64,000 bases of DNA from Confluentibacter lentus. Lineage in GTDB: Bacteria > Bacteroidota > Bacteroidia > Flavobacteriales > Flavobacteriaceae. Positions within the stretch are counted from its first letter, which is position 1. Each line of letters begins with the position of its first letter. Shown here piece after piece: positions 16,149-26,276 of the stretch. The stretch covers positions 496,001 through 560,000 of the forward strand of contig NZ_NIHE01000001.1 in the NCBI RefSeq assembly GCF_002806995.1, given 5' to 3'. The notes beneath the pieces were generated by a model. That model was not told the origin of the DNA. It worked only from the letters and a program-made list of their open reading frames with translations, and ran no database searches. The translations under genes and the position numbers were made by a program.

Positions 16149-18434
16149 CTATTCCTCTTCTTCCGATGAAGTTACCTTTTTTGCTGGTTTTACGGAAGCA
16201 TCATGCGATTTATAATATTCTTCTAGAAGATTCATGGTTGCGTTCAATAAATCCTTGGTTTCAAGCAAAAGACTAAAATATAGGGTTGTGTTCTTTGGAC
16301 TAGTTTCTTCAGAACGTGTGCGACCAACCTGTTTTTGGATTTTAGATGTTACCAAACCTAAAATTTCTTGCTTTCTTCCTAAAATAACCCCAATTTGTTC
16401 AAAAGATCTGGACTCAAAAGCGGCTTGTGTATTGTTAAAGAAAATATCGAATCGATCGTCAATTTCCTTTAATTCCTTTATTTGATTAAACTTTAATTTT
16501 TTATGGTTGTTATTGACGTGCTTGTAACTTACTTTAGATATATATTCTAATGACTGAACAATATCTTGCAAATACGCTAAAATATGGATATAAAAATTAC
16601 TAGCTCCAACACTGGATTCATCTAAATTTTTAATAAAATAGAAGATGTTATCGCGCAATTCGTCAACCTCGGCAGATAATTTTTTAATTTGCTTATCATT
16701 CTTTTTTAATAATGATAAATCTTGTAATGCCAATCCGTTTATAGCATTTGTGTAAATCTTATTTCCACGTTTAACCACATTGGCAATATTATCAGCACTT
16801 TCATGAATAATACCTTGGATGGAGCTACTTTCAGAAGTCCGCAAACTATCTGATGCTTTATCAGACTGCATTTTTTTAGTAAAACTAATAGAACTTTTTA
16901 CGATAAGAAAACCGGCTATGAGGAATAAAACACCAATAGCAATCGGGCCACCAATATACATTAAATAAGCCAAAGTTCCCGCAACTACAAAAGCAATAAT
17001 GGCGGTTAAAAACCATCCAGCTATCACGTTAAGCACACCGGCAACGCGGTAAACGGCAGTTTCGTTGTTCCATGCTCTATCTGCCAATGAGGTTCCCATC
17101 GCCACCATAAACGTTACATAGGTGGTTGACAATGGCAATTTCATAGATGTTGCCGCCGCTATTAAAATACTAGATACAATTAAGTTGATGGAAGCTCTTA
17201 CTAAGTCGAAAGCAGGTAAATCTGCATTATCCTTTGCAGACACTGTAGAATTATCTTTTTCAAAGCGTTTGTTTATCTTTTCGTGTATGGAATTTGGTAA
17301 AATATATTTGTATGCATAAGATAATGCAATGGAAGAACGTACTATGGCACGCGATAAATAATTTGGCTCGAAACGTTCTTTTGCTTCACCTTCTCTGGAA
17401 AGGTTTAATTCTGTTTGGGTAACATATCTCGACTTTTTTGAAAGCCATAATGTAATCACCATAACAATTCCAGAAAAAACCAATAAAATGGCAGGTGTAG
17501 TTGCATCTTCTTTAAGACTACTCATATTATACAAGGTATCTGAAACTCCAGAAGCTTGCCATAATTCAAAGGATTGCCATGCGGTAATAGGTACGCCAAC
17601 AAAATTCACCAAATCATTTCCCGCAAAGGCCAATGCCAAAGCAAACGTTCCAATGAGGATAATAAACTTATAAATATTGACTTTAAAAACAGTTGTTAGC
17701 AATGTGCTTATAGCTATCCAAAAAGCAAAATTCGCAACTAAAATCGTAAGGGTATTATTCTTGATATAACTTAAAGTATCTTTATCTATTAAAGACGTGC
17801 TTTTAAGTCCTTTTATGATAATAAAATAGGTAATAGCCGATGCTGCAATACCACCTATCAGCACATTAACCCAATTGCCGTGACGTTCAAACTTAAACGA
17901 TAAAAATGCCCTGGTAACATATTGAACAAAAGAACCTACTGAAAACGCAATAACCACTGAAAGTAATATCCCATATATAATTTCTGTTGCTTTGTCCGTA
18001 TTTATGTAATTATAAACATCTCCAAAAGTTCCATCAATACTATACACTTTTATAAGTGCCATGGCTACGGAAGCTCCCAGTAAATCAAAAACAATAGAAA
18101 CCGTTGTTGAAGTTGGCAGCCCTAAACTATTGAAAAAATCCAATAGTAAAATGTCGGCTATCATCACAGCCATGAAAATAATCATGATTTCATTGAAACT
18201 AAACATGGAAGGATTTAAAATACCTTCACGTGCAATTTCCATCATCCCGTTTGAAAATACGGCGCCAAGGATAAGCCCAATGGAGGCAACAATCATGATG
18301 GTTTTAACAGGCACAGCTTTTGAACCTATAGCAGAATTTAAAAAGTTTACAGCATCATTGCTTACTCCTACTACCAAATCAGCAACTGCTAAAATGCCTA
18401 GGGCAATAATCATGTACAAGTAAATGTTTTCCAT
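16149..18434 (-). CDS. Inorganic phosphate transporter, PiT family, with PhoU-like C-terminal domain
   Basis: The 761-residue protein has the two PiT/PHO-4 halves. The first is near residues 5-130, with VGVSNDAVNFLNSAIGSKA and GLPTSTTVSIVFDLLGA. The second is near 265-490, with AGNDLVNFVGVP and LPLSTTYVTFMVAMGTSLAD. The duplicated GANDxxN-like and PxSTT motifs are the family signatures of cation-coupled phosphate symporters. From about 545 to 745 the protein is helical, charged and cytoplasmic, resembling PhoU/DUF47; this extension is usual in Bacteroidota PiT proteins and suggests built-in control of transport. It follows the porin gene by 99 bases and has its own Pho-type promoter there. 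Confidence 0.93.
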   Translation of the reverse strand: MENIYLYMIIALGILAVADLVVGVSNDAVNFLNSAIGSKAVPVKTIMIVASIGLILGAVFSNGMMEIAREGILNPSMFSFNEIMIIFMAVMIADILLLDFFNSLGLPTSTTVSIVFDLLGASVAMALIKVYSIDGTFGDVYNYINTDKATEIIYGILLSVVIAFSVGSFVQYVTRAFLSFKFERHGNWVNVLIGGIAASAITYFIIIKGLKSTSLIDKDTLSYIKNNTLTILVANFAFWIAISTLLTTVFKVNIYKFIILIGTFALALAFAGNDLVNFVGVPITAWQSFELWQASGVSDTLYNMSSLKEDATTPAILLVFSGIVMVITLWLSKKSRYVTQTELNLSREGEAKERFEPNYLSRAIVRSSIALSYAYKYILPNSIHEKINKRFEKDNSTVSAKDNADLPAFDLVRASINLIVSSILIAAATSMKLPLSTTYVTFMVAMGTSLADRAWNNETAVYRVAGVLNVIAGWFLTAIIAFVVAGTLAYLMYIGGPIAIGVLFLIAGFLIVKSSISFTKKMQSDKASDSLRTSESSSIQGIIHESADNIANVVKRGNKIYTNAINGLALQDLSLLKKNDKQIKKLSAEVDELRDNIFYFIKNLDESSVGASNFYIHILAYLQDIVQSLEYISKVSYKHVNNNHKKLKFNQIKELKEIDDRFDIFFNNTQAAFESRSFEQIGVILGRKQEILGLVTSKIQKQVGRTRSEETSPKNTTLYFSLLLETKDLLNATMNLLEEYYKSHDASVKPAKKVTSSEEEE

Positions 18435-18453: not shown

Positions 18454-18497
18454 CAAATATCTTATGAATTTTAATAAGCTAAGTTACGCAATTGTTA
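18454..18497 (-). promoter_or_regulatory. Candidate Pho-type promoter of the PiT gene
   Basis: Minus-strand -7 element GATATTTG (plus 18454-18461), one mismatch to TAnnTTTG, 20 bases from the start codon. Upstream are two 7-mers 11 bp apart, written on the plus strand: TAAGTTA (18480) and ATTGTTA (18491). The distance from the element's edge (18454) to the first clear repeat is 26, the same as at the TonB receptor and at 26141. Confidence 0.5.
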
Positions 18498-18533
18498 TTT
18501 TTTATAGCTTACTTAAATTTGAAATTAATATGC

Positions 18534-19736
18534 TTAAAAATTTACCTGAAACTGTAATCTTAGCAGACTTCCTTTTTGGTGGTTATCTGGATTTATGAAA
18601 TCCTCATATCTTCTATCTGAAAATGTATAAGCAGCAACAAATTCTATGCTCTTGTAGGGTTGCCATTCTAAACCAAACTCAAGTTCTTTTACGTCATAGC
18701 TTCTAGCATCCAATTCGTGCTTTTTACCACCATTGTAATACTGTAACTTGGCGAATGGATATACTAATTGCCTATTAATTGGCAACTTAGCATTGAGCAT
18801 AAGATAGCCGCCATGTAAATTTTGAACCTCTATACTATTTCTAACTTTATCAAACTCTGGACCTTTACCAAAATTATACTCGGCTTGAATGCCAAAAGGT
18901 TTTGGGTACAATATAGCAGATACGGCAAATCGCTGGTCTATATAAGTATTGTTTTCTCTATGTTGAACCCCTTCCGATATTTGTTTGCTATCAATAGTAT
19001 AGTCACCTGTATAAGCTTGAATTCCAGCCTCAAAAATTTGCGTACCAATTTCAAAAGGATATGCTAAGCGTGCAACAATGTGTTTTTTATTGTTCAGTTC
19101 CTCTAAATTCGCGGTTTGACCGTTGTAAATACCAAATCCAAAAACACCGTAATCCCCAGAGCCTTTGTACCCATCTTTAACTAACATTGAGAAACGCTCA
19201 CGGATTTTTTTAGGAGCCCAATAGAAAAACACACCCAAATCCCGTTCGTTTCTTAAGGCACTATTTAAAGCATCGTTACGGTCTAACGTTAACCTATTTT
19301 GGCTTGATTGCATGTTTTCAAAACCAAAAGGCACTTTACTTTGTCCCACTCGAAAACGAAACTCATTTTTTGAATCTAAGCCAACATCAACATAAGCATC
19401 GCGAATTTGACCAAAATGTTGGTTGGAGCCGGAAGCACTTGCAAAGTCGGGTTGAATATAAAAGTAAACCCTTGGATGAATTTGTCCATAAAATACCAAA
19501 CGGATACGTCTAAAAAAGAAATCACTATCGCCTCCCCAAGATTTATCACATTGTTCGCAAGTTAAATCTGGGTTTGTTTGGATTAACCCATTGTACCTTA
19601 ATTGGGCATAACCTCTTAAATTAATTTCTTCATACCACTCTTTTTCTAGGGTATCGTTTGAAGTAGGATTATTTTGCGCGATGGAAAATAATGAACAGCA
19701 GAATATAATAGTAAATACTATTAACGGTTTTTTCAT
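18534..19736 (-). CDS. Phosphate-selective porin (OprO/OprP type)
   Basis: The 400-residue protein has a signal peptide (MKKPLIVFTIIFCCSLFSIAQ) and an amphipathic beta-strand body ending LRLQFQVNF with the terminal aromatic typical of barrels. It resembles the porin O/P family of Bacteroidota: the start of the barrel reads NLRGYAQLRYNG, and VGQSKVPFGFENMQSS and RNERDLGVFFYW follow, as I remember for that family. Such porins let anions, mainly phosphate, cross the outer membrane. The gene is 99 bases upstream of the PiT gene on the same strand, so outer- and inner-membrane phosphate uptake are paired. A Pho-like box precedes it. Confidence 0.85.
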   Translation of the reverse strand: MKKPLIVFTIIFCCSLFSIAQNNPTSNDTLEKEWYEEINLRGYAQLRYNGLIQTNPDLTCEQCDKSWGGDSDFFFRRIRLVFYGQIHPRVYFYIQPDFASASGSNQHFGQIRDAYVDVGLDSKNEFRFRVGQSKVPFGFENMQSSQNRLTLDRNDALNSALRNERDLGVFFYWAPKKIRERFSMLVKDGYKGSGDYGVFGFGIYNGQTANLEELNNKKHIVARLAYPFEIGTQIFEAGIQAYTGDYTIDSKQISEGVQHRENNTYIDQRFAVSAILYPKPFGIQAEYNFGKGPEFDKVRNSIEVQNLHGGYLMLNAKLPINRQLVYPFAKLQYYNGGKKHELDARSYDVKELEFGLEWQPYKSIEFVAAYTFSDRRYEDFINPDNHQKGSLLRLQFQVNF

Positions 19737-19761
19737 TGGTAATTATTAGTTTTTGTCGCTG

Positions 19762-19796
19762 CAAATAACTTAACCGAATGTTAATTAAATGTTTCC
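19762..19796 (-). promoter_or_regulatory. Candidate Pho-type promoter of the porin gene
   Basis: Plus-strand repeats AATGTTA (19777) and AATGTTT (19788), 11 bp apart, lie next to a weak minus-strand -7 element with TTTG (plus 19762-19765), 26 bases from the start codon. The edge-to-repeat distance is 15, that is 26 minus one 11-bp turn, so it keeps the register of the other sites. Predicted leader about 20 bases. Confidence 0.55.
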
Positions 19797-19815
19797 TAAT
19801 AATTAAGTTAACAAT

Positions 19816-19843
19816 AAAAAAAGCTGCCTTGGCCTAAGGCAGC
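19816..19843 (-). terminator. Minus-strand intrinsic terminator with no gene in front of it
   Basis: Stem GCTGCCTT (19823-19830) / AAGGCAGC (19836-19843), loop of five, followed on the minus strand by seven U (19822-19816). On the plus strand no T run follows, so it acts on minus transcription. No minus-strand ORF lies between it and the plus-strand MORN gene. The rest of the 387 bases from 19737 to 20123 holds an AT-rich 12-bp hairpin (19957-19968/19976-19987), the porin promoter, and the repeat array of the MORN gene. Confidence 0.8.
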
Positions 19844-20038
19844 CTTATTAGAAATCATGATAATGTAGTCGACAAAAACTAATAGATTACATGAAAAACT
19901 AATTATTGTGTCTTAAGACTTAGCGAATATCATTCTTTAACTTTAGCTTATTGTAATGTAAATATTAACTAATTATTAATATTTACAATGTTAAATTTTA
20001 TATTATTATATAATTGATTTATAATATGTTACATAATT

Positions 20039-20095
20039 AAAGTTAATTTAATGTTATCTAAGTGTTGTTTTAATGTTACCAAATAACTATATTTG
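20039..20095 (+). promoter_or_regulatory. Promoter of the MORN protein gene with four 11-bp-spaced repeats
   Basis: Repeats AAAGTTA (20039), AATGTTA (20050), AGTGTTG (20061), AATGTTA (20072), exactly 11 bp apart, followed after nine bases by a perfect -7 element TATATTTG (20088-20095). Here the repeats point toward the gene, as in the E. coli Pho box; at the minus-strand genes they point away. Confidence 0.6.
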
Positions 20096-20123
20096 TTATA
20101 TAATGTTAAAAACCCCCATAATT

Positions 20124-20474
20124 ATGAAGAAATGTATTTTGTTTTTTGCCTTTTTAGTTACTGTGGTTTCTTTTGGACAACAAAAGAAAGAATTAAAACT
20201 TAACACTGACACTAATTTAATTGAAGCAGTTTATTATCATGACAATGGTGTTGTAAGCCAAACTGGATCTTACACAGCAGATGGTAAATTACAAGGAGAG
20301 TGGTTAAGTTTTGATACAGCAGGCAAAAAAGTTGTTTCTGGAAATTATGATAATGGTAAAAAAGTCGGCAAATGGTTTTATTATACTAATGAAACTATTA
20401 AAGAAGTAGATTACAAAAACAATGTTATTGCTAGTTTAAAAGAATCAGAAATAAAAAGTAATTCAGATTTTTAG
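20124..20474 (+). CDS. Small exported MORN-repeat (YwqK-like) protein
   Basis: The start is set at the ATG at 20124. The longest ORF begins at 20073, but that lies inside the repeat array and before the -7 element. The 116-residue product has a signal peptide (MKKCILFFAFLVTVVSFGQ). It then has two to three MORN-like units around YYHDNGVVSQTGSY, GKLQGEWLSFD and GNYDNGKKVGKWFYY. Proteins of this kind are often labelled YwqK-family antitoxin, but there is no toxin here and the periplasmic location makes that role unlikely. Its promoter suggests it belongs to the phosphate set. The molecular function is unknown. Confidence 0.75.
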   Translation: MKKCILFFAFLVTVVSFGQQKKELKLNTDTNLIEAVYYHDNGVVSQTGSYTADGKLQGEWLSFDTAGKKVVSGNYDNGKKVGKWFYYTNETIKEVDYKNNVIASLKESEIKSNSDF

Positions 20475-20496
20475 ATTTTTTTGACTATAGTAATAG

Positions 20497-20532
20497 AAAA
20501 AGGGTTTCAAAATATAATTGAAACCCTTTTTT
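20497..20532. terminator. Bidirectional terminator after the MORN gene
   Basis: Stem AAAAGGGTTTCAA (20498-20510) / TTGAAACCCTTTT (20518-20530), loop of seven, followed by TT and preceded by A. It lies between convergent genes. Confidence 0.85.
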
Positions 20533-20554
20533 ATGTTTTATTGGCACTTAAATT

Positions 20555-21148
20555 TTATTCCTTTTGAGACGGCTTCTTTAGAGATTCATAAGGGTTTTCT
20601 AGGGTTGAAATCCACTGTCTTTTTTTAGAATCATAATACGTGTTGGCATCAGGGAATTCAATATATTCCTCAGGTTTTGAATTTTTGAATTCATATTTTT
20701 TAACATCTTTATTCTGAATAACATCCTTAAACATTAATGCAGTTTTTTGAAAAAGTGGTGTTTCTTCCATTTTATAAGTCCGGAAAATTTCTTCATAATA
20801 AGTAATGTTATTGTTCCCATCCATTTTTAGCTTTCCAACGGTTGCTACTTTCTTTACTTTTAAACTTGGTGCAATTTTAGTAATGGCGAAATATGTTTCT
20901 CCTTTATCTTCATAATAAAATAACAAATCTACTTGCTTAGCCTGTAATTGATAGTTAGAATCAAATTGCTGATTAAACTTGGTTTCATGGGTTGCTTTGG
21001 GAGCCAATCTATCCACATACCTAATAACGGCATATTTAAATGCTTCTTCTTGATCTTCGGTAAGATAGATTTTCGGATTTATGTCAAGTTCTTTATTTTG
21101 ACAGGATAATAAAGGAATAAAAAGTAATAGTAAAATAAAATATTTCAT
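20555..21148 (-). CDS. Lipoprotein of unknown function downstream of the TonB receptor pair
   Basis: The 197-residue protein has a lipobox (MKYFILLLLFIPLLSCQNKE, Cys 16) and a soluble, charged body with no motif I know. It includes DLLFYYEDKGETYFAITKIAPSLKVKK and ends in a polar Ser/Pro/Lys tail. It is the third gene in line after the TonB receptor and the large lipoprotein. A hairpin with a T run lies between it and the second gene, so its expression may be lower than theirs or start separately. An accessory role in phosphate or phosphate-ester uptake is only an inference from position. Confidence 0.7.
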   Translation of the reverse strand: MKYFILLLLFIPLLSCQNKELDINPKIYLTEDQEEAFKYAVIRYVDRLAPKATHETKFNQQFDSNYQLQAKQVDLLFYYEDKGETYFAITKIAPSLKVKKVATVGKLKMDGNNNITYYEEIFRTYKMEETPLFQKTALMFKDVIQNKDVKKYEFKNSKPEEYIEFPDANTYYDSKKRQWISTLENPYESLKKPSQKE

Positions 21149-21160
21149 AAGTGATATTAT

Positions 21161-21194
21161 AAAAAAGAGCCTAACCTATTAGGCTAAGCTCTTT
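21161..21194 (-). terminator. Terminator or attenuator inside the TonB-receptor gene line
   Basis: Outer stem AAAGAG (21164-21169) / CTCTTT (21189-21194) and inner stem CCTAA (21170-21174) / TTAGG (21179-21183), with six U after it on the minus strand. It separates the genes at 21215 and 21148. Confidence 0.65.
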
Positions 21195-21214
21195 CAAATA
21201 TAAAGAATTAATTT

Positions 21215-22624
21215 TTAGTATGCTTTTTGAATTGGGTTAAACTCAGCCCAACCATCAGTCCAATCTGTTGCTCCAAAAGCACCTCTGTAAGTTGTAGGTG
21301 TAAAGAATGCATCTGTTAATTTTGCATTAGTAAATGAAGCCCCAGTAGCTAAAGTTCCAGATGTTACTGTAAAAGTTGCACTATTTGAATAACCTGTGCT
21401 TGTATTAGTACCAAAGAAAATATTTTGGTTTAATCCTAAATCAGCGTATACCGTATTGAAATCTGTTGAAGTAATAGTGGTGTTAGTTGCTTCCCATAAA
21501 GCTTGTACGTTTGCAGCTGTAGCCGTCATACCAGAACCAACAGAATATGTAGTTGCAGGAGCAACCATGATATTATTCAATAATGCACCTGTATTGTTAT
21601 TATAATTGTCGTAAACCGATTGTTGGTTCATACGGATACCTCTTGGCATACCAACAAAAACTGAGTTTGCAATAGTAAGTGCTGTTCTTCTTCTTAAGTC
21701 TAAAGCATGTTGGTAGTTACCATTTATTGATTGACTATTTGTTAATCTTGGCCCAATACCTGTAATATTTGAAAACACACCAGTTGTTAATAACGTTGTA
21801 AGGTTATCATTAGGTCCATTATCAGTTTCAAAAATGTTAGAACCAGATTGATCGGCATAACTACCATATCTAATATCTAAGCCAAATTGCACTTTGCCAG
21901 TAAAGCCATAATCTACGTCAAAAGAATCATCCCACATACCAAAAGTGATTAGGTATTTTGAATTCACAGAACCACCAAACCATTCAAAACCATCATCACC
22001 ACCAAAAGATACTTGGCAATAATCCATTACAGTACCACTTCCAACACCACCTAAAGTAATAGAGTTTGTTTCATTATTTGGCGTTAATTCAATACCAGCA
22101 AATTCTACTCTAACATATTTTAAAACACCAGAGTCATCAGCATCATTTGTACCACCAAAAACAACAGTTGGTGTAATCCCTTCAATAACTGGGTCTGCTT
22201 GATTGGTATTTGCTCTACCCAATATTACAATACCGCCCCAATCACCTCTATCTCTAGAACCTTGTGCTAAAGCAGATGTAAATACAATAGGCTCGTTAGC
22301 AGTACCTTCCGCCATTATTTTGCCGCCTCTATCAATTACCAATGTTCCTTTAGTGCCTTTATCACCAAAAATAGTAGTTCCTGGCTCAATAGTTAAAACT
22401 TGATTTTCTCTAACAAAAACCTGACCAACAAGTAAATATTTGTTATCACTTGTAAGTGTTTGTGTTTGTAAATTTCCTTGTAATTCAACATATTCCTCTT
22501 CAGGAGTTCCGCCACCGCCATTTTCAACAATAACTGTTATAGGAGGCGTTTCTTCTACAGTACAAGATGTTATAGCGAGCATAGAAAAAAGGATGCTAGC
22601 AAAGTAAAAAAGATTTTTTTTCAT
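21215..22624 (-). CDS. Large beta-rich surface lipoprotein paired with a TonB receptor
   Basis: The 469-residue protein has a lipobox (LFSMLAITSCTVEE, Cys 21) and a Gly/Glu linker. It then has a repetitive Gly/Asn/Thr-rich body suggestive of a right-handed beta-helix: LLVGQVFVRENQVLTIEPGT, GDWGGIVILGRAN, DDGFEWFGGSVNSKYL, WDDSFDVDYGFTGKVQFG. Such proteins are sometimes misnamed multidrug transporters in databases; nothing here suggests transport. They commonly sit right after a TonB receptor, as here (gap 40 bases), so it is probably the receptor's surface partner for ligand capture, comparable in logic to SusD but unrelated in fold. No type IX tail is visible. Confidence 0.8.
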   Translation of the reverse strand: MKKNLFYFASILFSMLAITSCTVEETPPITVIVENGGGGTPEEEYVELQGNLQTQTLTSDNKYLLVGQVFVRENQVLTIEPGTTIFGDKGTKGTLVIDRGGKIMAEGTANEPIVFTSALAQGSRDRGDWGGIVILGRANTNQADPVIEGITPTVVFGGTNDADDSGVLKYVRVEFAGIELTPNNETNSITLGGVGSGTVMDYCQVSFGGDDGFEWFGGSVNSKYLITFGMWDDSFDVDYGFTGKVQFGLDIRYGSYADQSGSNIFETDNGPNDNLTTLLTTGVFSNITGIGPRLTNSQSINGNYQHALDLRRRTALTIANSVFVGMPRGIRMNQQSVYDNYNNNTGALLNNIMVAPATTYSVGSGMTATAANVQALWEATNTTITSTDFNTVYADLGLNQNIFFGTNTSTGYSNSATFTVTSGTLATGASFTNAKLTDAFFTPTTYRGAFGATDWTDGWAEFNPIQKAY

Positions 22625-22664
22625 GATTATCAGTTTAAATTAATTGTGTTTTAGTATTTGCTTT

Positions 22665-25475
22665 TTAATTAAGATTGTATGTTACATTAAATGTTAACAG
22701 CGTTCCTCTTTTGAAAACTGAGGTAGCATTATCAATATTTTTTCTGATTTGTTCGTCTCTGTTTGAATCTTCAAAGAATTGATATTTAGCATTCAACAAA
22801 TCTTGAATACCTAATTTATAAGTAACTTTTTTGAATTTTTTAGAAATTGTGAAATCGATATTGTCTCTTGATAGCTCGTAAATTGTTGGAAAGTTATTAT
22901 CTCCAACAGAGAAGATTCTATCACCAAAACGGTTGTAAATTACATTGGCCGAAAAACCATTTTCATCCTCATAACCTAAAGCCGCATTTATGATATAAGG
23001 CGATTGTCCCTGCAAAGCTCTGTTTTGGTCTTGCGAAGTTACATTGCTACCCAAATCTACTTCCGATACAATGTAGGATGCATTGATGTTAGTAGATAGT
23101 TTGCTAATGAATGGATTATCTGAAATGTCCTTAAACGATTTACGAATTTCTATTTCCACACCGTAATTGTAAGCACTCTCTGCATTGGCATATAAGAATT
23201 GAGGCTGCTCTGTGGTAATTTCAGTAACATTTTCAATAGGATTTTTGAAGTTTTTATAGAACAATCCTAAACTCATGGTTTCTCCCATATTGGGATAAAA
23301 CTCGTAACGTAAGTCGATATTATCTATTTCTGCTGTTTTAAGATCGGCACTACCACGTCTTCCCGCTTCATTTTTATAATCATAAAATACGAATGGTGCA
23401 ATTTCCCTAAACTCAGGTCTGTTTACAGTTTTGCCATAAGCCAATCTTAATGTAGAACGGTCGCTTAAATTGTAAGACACGTTAAAGGATGGCAAAACAG
23501 ATGTGATGGGATTATCAACTGCTACGGGTTCTGTATCGGTACTACTATCTAACTTTTGAATGTTGTGTTCTACGCGAACACCACCAGAAATATCGAACCT
23601 ATTTAACGGTATTTGTGCATATAAGTAACCCGCTGTTAAAAAGTTACTTGCTTCATACGAATCAATTGGCCTTGTTCCTTCGCTTAATATCCAACCATCA
23701 TTTGGATTTACATTTACAGAATTAAAAATTTCAGTTAATGGTAATTGCTTTAATTCATTTCTGTTTTCAGTAACATATCCTGGAATTAAATATGAAAAAT
23801 AACGTGCCCCAAAATTTCTTTCTCTGTAATCAACCAAATACCCAGCTTTCAGAGTGGCACTGGTTCCATCTTCATCTTCAGTCTTGTTAAATGTATGAGT
23901 GAAGTTGGCAGCATTGTTAAAAGCATATTCATCTAACTGTCCAAAATATCTACCAGTATCAAATAAGTTTGATGATGCTGGGTCAATCATTTCAAACGGA
24001 CCGTTTGGATTATCTGCTGCTTGTATGGTTCTAAAACGTCTTAAGTCTGGTTCAGATTCATAAATATAATTCCCTCCCAAAACCCAATCAATTTTATCAG
24101 AAGGTGACAATTTGTGTTCTCCTTCAAACTGTCCTACATAAATAGTTCTAGCTTTGTATCCAAATAAATAGTTTTTGAATAAATCATTACCTCTTTGAAG
24201 AAAATTGTTCCCTGTACGAAGTATGGTTTCATTTTCACCTATTTGATTGAAAAGGTTTTTAAATTTAAGTGTGTTATTATCGTTTAATTTTAGAATCCAG
24301 TTTGATAAAGCAGTGATTCTTGTTTCATTTTTATAAGTGTCGTCAACATAATTTAACCATTGTGGTGGTCTTGTTTCACCTGGATTTAATGTAGTATAGC
24401 GGTTAAATTGTCTTGAAAAATATTGATACCCGTTAGAATGGTTTATACTATTGATAGATGACAATCTTACACCGTTTTCAAAGTTTTTTACCCTTCCAAA
24501 ACTTAATCCAAGACTATGGTCCAACCAAGCCATTGACGAGGTAGGATTAAAATTGTTTTCAAGTATTTGATTGGCAGCAGTGTTAACTCCAGGCAAATCA
24601 TTGATTTGTGATTTAGTTGGAAAACCACTTGGTAACATTCTAAAATTTCGATCGAATCCTAAACCATCCGTAGAAGAACCTCTAGTTTGAAAATAATCTT
24701 CAAACGTACTATTGCTTCTATAACCAACTCCAATACTTACTTTTGTAAAGTCTGTAATGATTTCTGAAGTTGTTAAACTAATAACACCTCCCGAAAAATC
24801 TCCAGGCTTATCAGATGAAGCTGTTTTGTATATTAATATTTTATCAATGGCATCCGTTGGAATTAAATCGAACGAGAATGTACGTTTATCTACCTCGGTA
24901 CTTGGCGCAATAGAATTATTGATCAGTACATTATTATAACGCTCATTCAAACCTCTAATCATAACAAATTTACCGTCCACAATAGTAACTCCGGGAACTC
25001 GTTGTACAGCTTCAGCAGCATTTCCATCAGTTCCTCTTGTTATTTGCTCAGAAGAAATCGCATTAATAATTTGTTTTGCTTTCTGCATTTCAATTAATAC
25101 GGCGCTTTCTGTGTTGCTTCTTCTTGGCGCACTAATAATCACGTCATCTAAACTTACAGCTCCCGCAGCTATTGGCACATTAACTTCCGTTGTTTTCTTG
25201 TTTTCAACTTTAACGTTTGGCACTTCAATGGTTTCGTAACCAACAAAACTTACTACAATGGTATAAACTCCTGGATCAAGATTATTTACAGAATAGTTAC
25301 CATCTATATCAGAAATGGTTCCTAGGGTTGTATTTTTAATTAAAATGTTTGCAAAAGCAAGTGGTTCATTATTATAATCTTTATCAGTAATTTTTCCAGA
25401 GATAGTACCCGAACCTGTTTGAGAGTAAATAAGGGATGTTGTAAAGAGGGTTAAATAAAATAATAGTTTTTTCAT
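22665..25475 (-). CDS. TonB-dependent receptor with N-terminal carboxypeptidase-regulatory domain
   Basis: The 936-residue protein has a signal peptide (MKKLLFYLTLFTTSLIYSQ). A CarboxypepD_reg-like domain lies at about 22-110 (SGKITDKDYNNEPLAFANI, VSFVGYETIEVPNVK). A plug lies at about 125-240 (AVQRVPGVTIVDGKFVMIRG, LNERYNNVLINN), and a 22-strand type barrel follows, ending LLTFNVTYNLN. It imports a ligand across the outer membrane using TonB-ExbBD energy. The ligand is not known from sequence. The gene is preceded by a five-unit Pho-like array and neighbours PiT and the phosphate porin, so a phosphorus compound is the best guess. It heads a line of three genes. Confidence 0.9.
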   Translation of the reverse strand: MKKLLFYLTLFTTSLIYSQTGSGTISGKITDKDYNNEPLAFANILIKNTTLGTISDIDGNYSVNNLDPGVYTIVVSFVGYETIEVPNVKVENKKTTEVNVPIAAGAVSLDDVIISAPRRSNTESAVLIEMQKAKQIINAISSEQITRGTDGNAAEAVQRVPGVTIVDGKFVMIRGLNERYNNVLINNSIAPSTEVDKRTFSFDLIPTDAIDKILIYKTASSDKPGDFSGGVISLTTSEIITDFTKVSIGVGYRSNSTFEDYFQTRGSSTDGLGFDRNFRMLPSGFPTKSQINDLPGVNTAANQILENNFNPTSSMAWLDHSLGLSFGRVKNFENGVRLSSINSINHSNGYQYFSRQFNRYTTLNPGETRPPQWLNYVDDTYKNETRITALSNWILKLNDNNTLKFKNLFNQIGENETILRTGNNFLQRGNDLFKNYLFGYKARTIYVGQFEGEHKLSPSDKIDWVLGGNYIYESEPDLRRFRTIQAADNPNGPFEMIDPASSNLFDTGRYFGQLDEYAFNNAANFTHTFNKTEDEDGTSATLKAGYLVDYRERNFGARYFSYLIPGYVTENRNELKQLPLTEIFNSVNVNPNDGWILSEGTRPIDSYEASNFLTAGYLYAQIPLNRFDISGGVRVEHNIQKLDSSTDTEPVAVDNPITSVLPSFNVSYNLSDRSTLRLAYGKTVNRPEFREIAPFVFYDYKNEAGRRGSADLKTAEIDNIDLRYEFYPNMGETMSLGLFYKNFKNPIENVTEITTEQPQFLYANAESAYNYGVEIEIRKSFKDISDNPFISKLSTNINASYIVSEVDLGSNVTSQDQNRALQGQSPYIINAALGYEDENGFSANVIYNRFGDRIFSVGDNNFPTIYELSRDNIDFTISKKFKKVTYKLGIQDLLNAKYQFFEDSNRDEQIRKNIDNATSVFKRGTLLTFNVTYNLN

Positions 25476-25500
25476 GTGTTGGTATCTAAATATTTTGATG

Positions 25501-25622
25501 CAAAGAAACCGCCACTATGTAAAGATGAAGTTACCTAAAAGTTAAACCTACTTCAAAAAACAGTTACCTGTGTGTTACGAAAAAAGGCGTTTTTATTAAA
25601 AAAGAAACATTAAGTTAACATT
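25501..25622 (-). promoter_or_regulatory. Five-unit 11-bp repeat array and promoter of the TonB receptor gene
   Basis: Plus-strand units GAAGTTA (25527), AAAGTTA (25538), TACTTCA (25549), ACAGTTA (25560), TGTGTTA (25571) are all exactly 11 bp apart. The minus -7 element TTTCTTTG (plus 25501-25508), one mismatch, is 26 from the first unit. A further pair in the other orientation, AAACATT (25605) and TAACATT (25616), is also 11 bp apart. Confidence 0.6.
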
Positions 25623-25730
25623 GAAAAACAATAAATAATTCAATACAAAAGGACACCAACTCGAGATGGCTTTAAAAAATAAAAAGTCTTGTAAAAAGCG
25701 TTATTTACTTACTTAAGTAAATAAAGTTAA

Positions 25731-26117
25731 TTATTTAGAAGCGTTAAAAGTAATGTCTTCTTTTTTTGAAGTACTAACCAAAGAAGCTAGTTCCAGTAAA
25801 GAAACTGAGGTTGCTGATAATGACAGATTCACTTCTACTGGATTTAAAGCATAAACATGAACTTTAATCTCTTGCGTTTCGTAACCAGGAAAACTACAAA
25901 CCAATGTATAATCACCTGCTTCTAAATTTTCAATCACAAATAATCCTGTTAAGTCAGTTTGAACTTCTATGGATGTTCCTTTAACAGACATATTTGCAAA
26001 TACCAAAGGTGTATTGTCCATTTCATTATCCATTACTTTACCAACAATTAAGCCTGTATTTTGGGCATAACCAACCGTGGCAAACAACATGATGAATAAG
26101 TAAAAAATGTTTTTCAT
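25731..26117 (-). CDS. Stand-alone copy of a TonB-receptor N-terminal (CarboxypepD_reg) domain
   Basis: The 128-residue protein has a signal peptide (MKNIFYLFIMLFATVGYAQ) and a single carboxypeptidase-regulatory-like domain: GLIVGKVMDNEMDNTPLVFA, LTGLFVIENLEAGDYTLVCS, FPGYETQEIKV. It matches the first 110 residues of the neighbouring receptor in layout and wording (compare VSFVGYETIEV there) and stops where the plug would begin. No stop-codon scar, plug or barrel remnant follows, so it looks like an intact small protein and not a pseudogene. It has its own strong five-unit repeat array, which suggests coexpression with the receptor. Function unknown; a partner or regulator of the receptor is possible. 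Confidence 0.8.
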   Translation of the reverse strand: MKNIFYLFIMLFATVGYAQNTGLIVGKVMDNEMDNTPLVFANMSVKGTSIEVQTDLTGLFVIENLEAGDYTLVCSFPGYETQEIKVHVYALNPVEVNLSLSATSVSLLELASLVSTSKKEDITFNASK

Positions 26118-26140
26118 AAAACGGACAAATAATAACAGTG

Positions 26141-26217
26141 CAAATTAAAAGCTTTACTACTAAGTGAATGTTACCTAAATATTAAGCAACGGTCATTAAA
26201 ATGTTAGCTTAATGTTA
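26141..26217 (-). promoter_or_regulatory. Five-unit 11-bp repeat array between the domain protein gene and dgt
   Basis: Plus-strand units AATGTTA (26167), AATATTA (26178), ACGGTCA (26189), AATGTTA (26200), AATGTTA (26211), all 11 bp apart. Minus -7 element TTAATTTG (plus 26141-26148), one mismatch, stands 26 from the first unit, as at the PiT and TonB sites. The array also lies 60 bases before dgt on the plus strand, whose own weak -7 may be TATCTTGC (26251). Confidence 0.65.
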
Positions 26218-26276
26218 CCAAGTTCGAGTTTTATTTTAACTGAATTTCTTTATCTTGCCTTACTTAAATCCGCACC

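Follow-up and report, generated by a model that had tools for sequence, protein, structure and literature searches.

Phased GTTA repeats as a putative Pho box, and a predicted antisense RNA, at a phosphate-acquisition locus of Confluentibacter lentus

The window, that is the whole stretch of DNA that was analysed, comprises 64,000 nucleotides of the Confluentibacter lentus genome. One part of it contains the following genes.

16149 to 18434, minus strand: PiT-family phosphate permease, 761 aa (Pfam PHO4, 2.7e-30)
18534 to 19736, minus strand: Porin_O_P phosphate-type porin, 400 aa (Pfam PF07396, 1.2e-32)
20124 to 20474, plus strand: small secreted protein of the MORN_2 type, 116 aa (Pfam MORN_2, 1.7e-5, under the gathering score)
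20555 to 21148, minus strand: lipoprotein-like protein of unknown function, 197 aa, which trails the FII homologue in Flavobacterium too
21215 to 22624, minus strand: homologue of the low-phosphate lipoprotein FII (Fjoh_0546 type)
22665 to 25475, minus strand: TonB-dependent receptor of the Fjoh_0545 type (Pfam Plug and CarbopepD_reg_2; Flavobacterium loci)
25731 to 26117, minus strand: CarboxypepD_reg-like domain standing alone, with homology to the N-terminus of the receptor (Pfam; a box precedes its homologue in the relative L085)

A sequence-only reading of this DNA had named the PiT transporter, phosphate-type porin, TonB receptor, MORN protein and stand-alone receptor domain, and these identities held, the Pfam match to MORN_2 being weak. 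The TonB receptor is 66–71% identical, and the lipoprotein that follows it 73–83% identical, to genes lying divergent from phoB in Flavobacterium. Four Flavobacterium loci have the receptor divergent from phoB and then homologues of 21215–22624 and 20555–21148, with the porin type of the window nearby in two of the four. The arrangement matches the phoBR cluster of F. johnsoniae (Fjoh_0541-0549), where the receptor and the FII lipoprotein are raised by log2 8.0 and 9.9 on phosphate depletion and OprP shows no induction in the published table (PMC8115612). The genes of the window were equated with Fjoh genes by their arrangement and description, and not by sequence comparison with F. johnsoniae. 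The same receptor, FII and porin types stand beside phoBR in the F. johnsoniae PHO regulon, whereas here the cluster is separate from phoBR. Neither pstS nor PhoX was found in the C. lentus genome, and phosphate entry may therefore depend on the PiT permease and the outer-membrane proteins of the window.

The intergenic regions of this locus contain short direct repeats, arranged as follows.

18480 to 18497, plus strand: two-unit box before PiT, units TAAGTTACGCA and ATTGTTATTTT in 11-bp phase
19777 to 19798, plus strand: two-unit box in the porin promoter, supported by ladder scores, profile and a fixed distance to the leader in relatives
20039 to 20082, plus strand: four-unit box before the MORN gene, supported by matrix, profile and shuffles and conserved in other genera
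25527 to 25581, plus strand: five-unit box in the receptor promoter, the middle unit unmatched (genome-wide match at 25518–25544)
25606 to 25626, minus strand: second two-unit box upstream of the receptor, in the opposite orientation, supported by the matrix
26167 to 26221, plus strand: five-unit box between the CarboxypepD gene and dgt, the strongest site of the genome (E 0.0012)

Five of these sites, beginning at 18480, 19777, 20039, 25527 and 26167, had been proposed as arrays of 7-mers in strict 11-bp phase. This claim held, with the GTTA of the units on the plus strand throughout. The array at 25527 held only in part as a run of five, because its middle unit at 25549 (TACTTCA) is no match. 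Several units are degenerate, among them GTGTTGT at 20061 and AATATTA at 26178. The further claim that one unit reads GGTCA is correct: CGGTCAT at 26189 is TGTCA-like. Three features had been overlooked, namely the minus-strand site at 25606–25626, the phoB site elsewhere in the genome and a small-RNA gene in the porin–MORN gap. The orientation of the boxes varies with the gene, being the same as that of the gene for MORN and phoB and the opposite for porin, PiT and receptor.

At 34% GC, GTTA and TTAA are common words, and the repeats could in principle be chance similarity in AT-rich intergenic DNA. Three GTTA words at free spacing are, genome-wide, no commoner than the reversed pattern; this count was set aside as uninformative, being swamped by heptamer microsatellites. 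Perfect repeats of this kind, (GTTAAAA)n and (GTTAGTT)n, occur at C1:11908, C2:127634, C3:74572, C12:78248, C27:29352, C31:55367, C31:153514 and C32:142839. Shuffle tests and spacing controls contradict the chance reading, as do its deep conservation across genomes and the ranking of the sites genome-wide, and chance can be all but excluded. With a unit matrix trained only on other genomes, ladder scores beat 2000 dinucleotide shuffles of each region at every one of the five sites: p = 0.0015 for the two units at 18480 in the PiT–porin gap, 0.001 for two and 0.0005 for three units at 19777, 0.0005 for the four units at 20039, 0.0015 for the five at 25527 and 0.0005 for the five at 26167. Ladder scores at control spacings of 9, 10, 12 and 13 bp were much below those at 11 bp in nearly all regions. 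All sites of the window, 25606–25626 included, are conserved footprints in comparison with Confluentibacter citreus, the receptor of which is 93% identical, and the 26167 array is intact there despite an adjoining 87-bp indel. The 18480 site is weak alone and missing from the genome-wide profile list described below, yet it too forms a conserved footprint, together with a TATTTGC element resembling a -7 box.

The same element stands before phoB. The genome encodes five proteins with an OmpR/PhoB DNA-binding domain, only one of which is clearly PhoB, its gene being followed by that of a PhoR-like kinase. PhoB was found in 59 of 60 genomes of the family, and the copies in the other genomes are 63–89% identical to it. 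The phoB promoter of C. lentus bears an array of the kind seen in the window, and GTTA-N7-GTTA lies before phoB in all 30 Flavobacteriaceae genera read, about 85–170 bp before the start codon. Among GTTA pairs in these promoters, 37 are spaced at 11 bp and 9 at 22 bp, against 0–6 at nearly all other spacings. The box is separated from a TAnnTTTr -7 element by 46–48 or 53–56 nt. In other families of the class the core upstream of phoB is TTAAC, and TTAA pairs occur at 11 bp in 26 of 45 upstream regions and at 22 bp in 17, other spacings giving 1–10; this class-wide phasing before phoB indicates that the phasing is old. A comparison of PhoB with solved structures yielded no conclusion on base contacts.

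A matrix was built from the phoB promoters of other genomes, C. lentus excluded. It gave 32.9 bits for the phoB site of C. lentus, 23.5 bits at 26203 and 18.8 bits at 20064, the latter two ranking first and second among about 128,000 positions of the 64-kb window. In 240 kb of other genome stretches a single position reached 18.8 bits. A calibrated profile (R1), made from 44 sites of other genomes, was searched over the whole 3.35 Mb genome. It placed 26192–26220 first, the phoB promoter second, 20039–20060 fifth and 25606–25626 sixth, with 25518, 19772, 26161 and 20063 further down the list. Eight of the 27 listed matches fall within the 8-kb stretch 18454–26217, and the remaining matches other than phoB lie beside assorted, unrelated genes. 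As the model is short its E-values are rough, and it is the ranking that carries the argument.

Nine further genera likewise have arrays between MORN and PiT or porin, and three have them between receptor/lipoprotein and dgt. Arrays are also found in other genera before one stand-alone CarboxypepD gene and before a porin–pst operon. They persist in the PiT/porin–MORN and receptor–dgt gaps of genera in which the lipoprotein is only 33–47% identical. Of the predictions made by the sequence-only reading, enrichment upstream of other phosphate genes held for phoB and for the receptor, lipoprotein, porin and PiT cluster. Matches before pst and PhoX genes failed or could not be met, the genome being without pstS and phoX; the PhoX genes of seven relatives have no box directly upstream, and 30 pstS upstream regions across the phylum gave only a faint 11-bp signal. 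The suggestion of a first consensus for the phylum held in part, since the phasing upstream of phoB is class-wide, the pstS signal is faint phylum-wide and partial precedents exist. As a separate observation, an 11-bp-phased GTTA array at C1:682697-682724 (L255) lies in a long intergenic region flanked by genes for a secreted protein of 202 aa and an AraC-like regulator, without an obvious phosphate gene beside it.

These comparisons establish that the arrays exist, are phased and conserved, rank high genome-wide and are associated with phoB and phosphate genes. They support the phosphate-regulon reading, for which there are no data on PhoB binding or phosphate response in this species. A Pho box is recognized by direct repeats every 11 bp, by its position upstream of phosphate-acquisition genes and phoB, and by a TGTCA core. 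The first feature is present and so is the second, except for PhoX genes; the third is absent, the core being GTTA with a single GGTCA unit. Like the E. coli Pho box, the element consists of head-to-tail short units every 11 bp, possibly several, before phosphate genes and phoB; it differs in having GTTA rather than TGTCA, a Bacteroidota -7 promoter, and units that may point either way with respect to the gene. The GTTA Pho box (about AATGTTANNTA) appears to be a new variant of the E. coli TGTCA box, binding by PhoB being inferred.

The arrays could instead serve another regulator of the OmpR/PhoB family, for example one that is RprY-like or ArcA-like. Head-to-tail GTTA repeats at 11 bp are also the architecture of the ArcA box, two more response regulators that carry this DNA-binding domain and are plausible candidates are encoded in the genome, and the DAP-seq motif of Riemerella anatipestifer PhoP, TTTAACA, was termed ArcA-like (PMC9603813). 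Against this, no genus read lacks the element before phoB, elsewhere it is concentrated on phosphate genes, the F. johnsoniae orthologues respond to phosphate, and the short stretches read upstream of the two other regulators contain no such array. The geometry and GTTA core of the ArcA box are shared; the genes here are phosphate genes. This alternative is regarded as improbable. It is very probable that the arrays are PhoB sites upstream of phosphate genes and that the same locus encodes a porin-repressing small RNA (described below), with PhoB binding, activation, the phosphate response of the species, transcription of the RNA and repression all inferred.

Under this model phosphorylated PhoB would bind the arrays as head-to-tail dimers. 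Under phosphate limitation it would substitute at these sites for a -33 element and increase the transporters. From positions immediately ahead of the -7 box it would switch on PiT, porin, receptor, lipoproteins and MORN protein, and it would regulate its own gene as well. Bacteroides fragilis PhoB, from the same class, binds the pstC promoter and is required for the low-phosphate response, but no box consensus is given in the text (PMC3547664). A study with a Dokdonia strain among those covered marked putative Pho boxes at plcP clusters (PMC4796936). Riemerella PhoP, a flavobacterial phosphate-type regulator whose orthology to the present PhoB is untested, regulates its own gene and has targets that are mostly not phosphate genes. 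Its motif is the complement of TGTTAAA, and 11-bp arrays are not described in the text (PMC9603813). The F. johnsoniae PHO study reported no promoter motif (PMC8115612).

The gap between the porin and MORN genes also contains a predicted small RNA, directly upstream of the porin and on the same strand; it is listed here with its seed and its predicted target.

19816 to 19922, minus strand: predicted small RNA of about 107 nt
19870 to 19884, minus strand: antisense seed UAUUAGUUUUUGUCG of the RNA, matching the porin leader by complementarity (duplex -27 kcal/mol)
19744 to 19758, minus strand: porin mRNA leader CGACAAAAACUAAUA, the predicted target, complementary to the seed

The RNA consists of a 5' hairpin (GUC-UUAA-GAC), a central hairpin with the apical loop UUUGUC, the antisense stretch and an intrinsic terminator. 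The apical loop and the sequences beside it are antisense to leader and start codon of the porin; the 5' flank of the seed, UUCAUGUAAU, prolongs the pairing over the start codon. An unbiased search found the common porin type of the family in 85 of 150 genomes, and 72 porin upstream regions were read, the own genus included. RNA and leader are both present in 56 of the 72, about 120 nt apart, and at least twelve of the loci have no recognizable RNA or leader. The terminator occurs in all 56 loci with the RNA, with 46 distinct stem sequences, compared with 5% of random pieces. The alifold energy is -30.5, as against -0.9 (sd 1.1) for column shuffles, and the hairpins show many compensatory changes.

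Pairing between RNA and leader averages -22.3 kcal/mol within a genome and -19.0 kcal/mol with those of other genomes (own-versus-cross permutation test, z = -10, 0 of 20,000). The test ignores the relatedness of the genomes, and relatedness alone should not favour complementarity. Co-varied pairing is exemplified by UUACAGUUUUUGUC with GACAAAAACUGUAA in the relative L229 and by GCAAUUCAU with AUGAAUUGC, inside the coding start, in L197. The hairpins, the terminator and the co-variation with the target are demonstrated; transcription and repression are inferred. What would be expected of an antisense RNA, namely its own intrinsic terminator, a conserved structure and complementarity to the target start kept by co-variation, is present, and membership of a described RNA family is not, as Rfam gave no match for the small RNA. 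A lone sub-threshold match to VrrA at 21161–21258 was judged to be chance. No second obvious target was found, the 12-mer GACAAAAACTAA occurring only twice elsewhere in the genome, once at a gene start and once inside an ORF.

The two complementary arms could alternatively be read as an inverted repeat acting in cis, in which a read-through fold masks the porin start or a protein binds both DNA arms. The arms share a strand and keep a fixed arrangement, with about 120 nt between them, which would fit this reading. However, a strong terminator separates the arms in 56 of 56 loci, a separate box and -7 element for the porin follow the terminator, and the upstream arm lies in a covarying hairpin of its own that is preceded by the 5' hairpin. 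The cis reading is thus considered unlikely, and a small RNA acting on the porin message is preferred. The distance from the porin box to the leader core is 17–18 nt in 42 of the 56 loci of relatives. The -7 box of the porin, GTTMTTTGC, is poor, which suggests that the promoter may depend on an activator.

Directly before the small RNA the matrix recognizes no box; all that is seen there is TTAAT, twice and in 11-bp phase, a pair that is conserved. About 100 nt upstream is the strong array, which probably belongs to the divergent MORN promoter. The TTAAT pair, followed by TTACA, is seen at 19925–19990 on the minus strand and at the same place in relatives, and is possibly a weaker site or that of a different regulator.

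In the proposed mechanism the independently terminated RNA would contact the single-stranded 5' end of the porin mRNA through its UUUGUC apical loop. YUNR-like U-turns are known from antisense RNAs, and the UUUG of this loop is YUNR-like. Pairing would then spread over the start codon and probably block porin translation. The RNA may restrain the porin when phosphate is ample or act as a brake on induction, the sign and timing being inferred.

GibS is likewise a small RNA that pairs with a translation start, and differs in sequence and target (PMC7366714). Antisense RNAs of the OhsC/ShoB type, known from type I toxin systems, pair with the target start and are encoded next to the target; the present RNA has a different sequence and a phosphate porin as its target, and lies directly upstream on the same strand. 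MicF and MicC regulate enterobacterial porins, are encoded away from their targets and depend on Hfq. Porin repression at the start codon, predicted here, is shared with them, but the present RNA is adjacent and dedicated. The open-access literature searched (subscription papers were outside the scope) contains neither a Bacteroidota box consensus nor such an RNA, and within that literature and Rfam the RNA family is apparently undescribed.

A bolder reading, which we consider probable, is that a new Flavobacteriaceae family of antisense RNAs in the phosphate regulon and a Bacteroidia-wide GTTA Pho box together form a two-level control of outer-membrane phosphate entry, the RNA tracking the porin message through UUUGUC despite changes of leader, start-codon context and porin type. 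One short region would then seem to govern phosphate uptake at two levels. Much of the turnover of organic matter in marine, soil and gut habitats is dominated by Bacteroidota, many of which are without the classic Pst system; the matrix makes their regulon predictable from sequence and testable. If real, the small RNA would, within the literature searched, be the first RNA regulator dedicated to a phosphate porin, and also a rare case of antisense RNA among bacteria with no obvious Hfq.

In two relatives, L218 and L228, the porin leaders carry the GACAAAAACUA core with no recognizable small RNA upstream, making both natural candidates for RNA loss. The Confluentibacter porin, at 18534–19736 in the window, shares about 20% identity with the subfamily that most relatives have there and is of a different type; the leader and RNA (19737–19925) are still retained. 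It is possible that the porin gene was exchanged while its control region remained.
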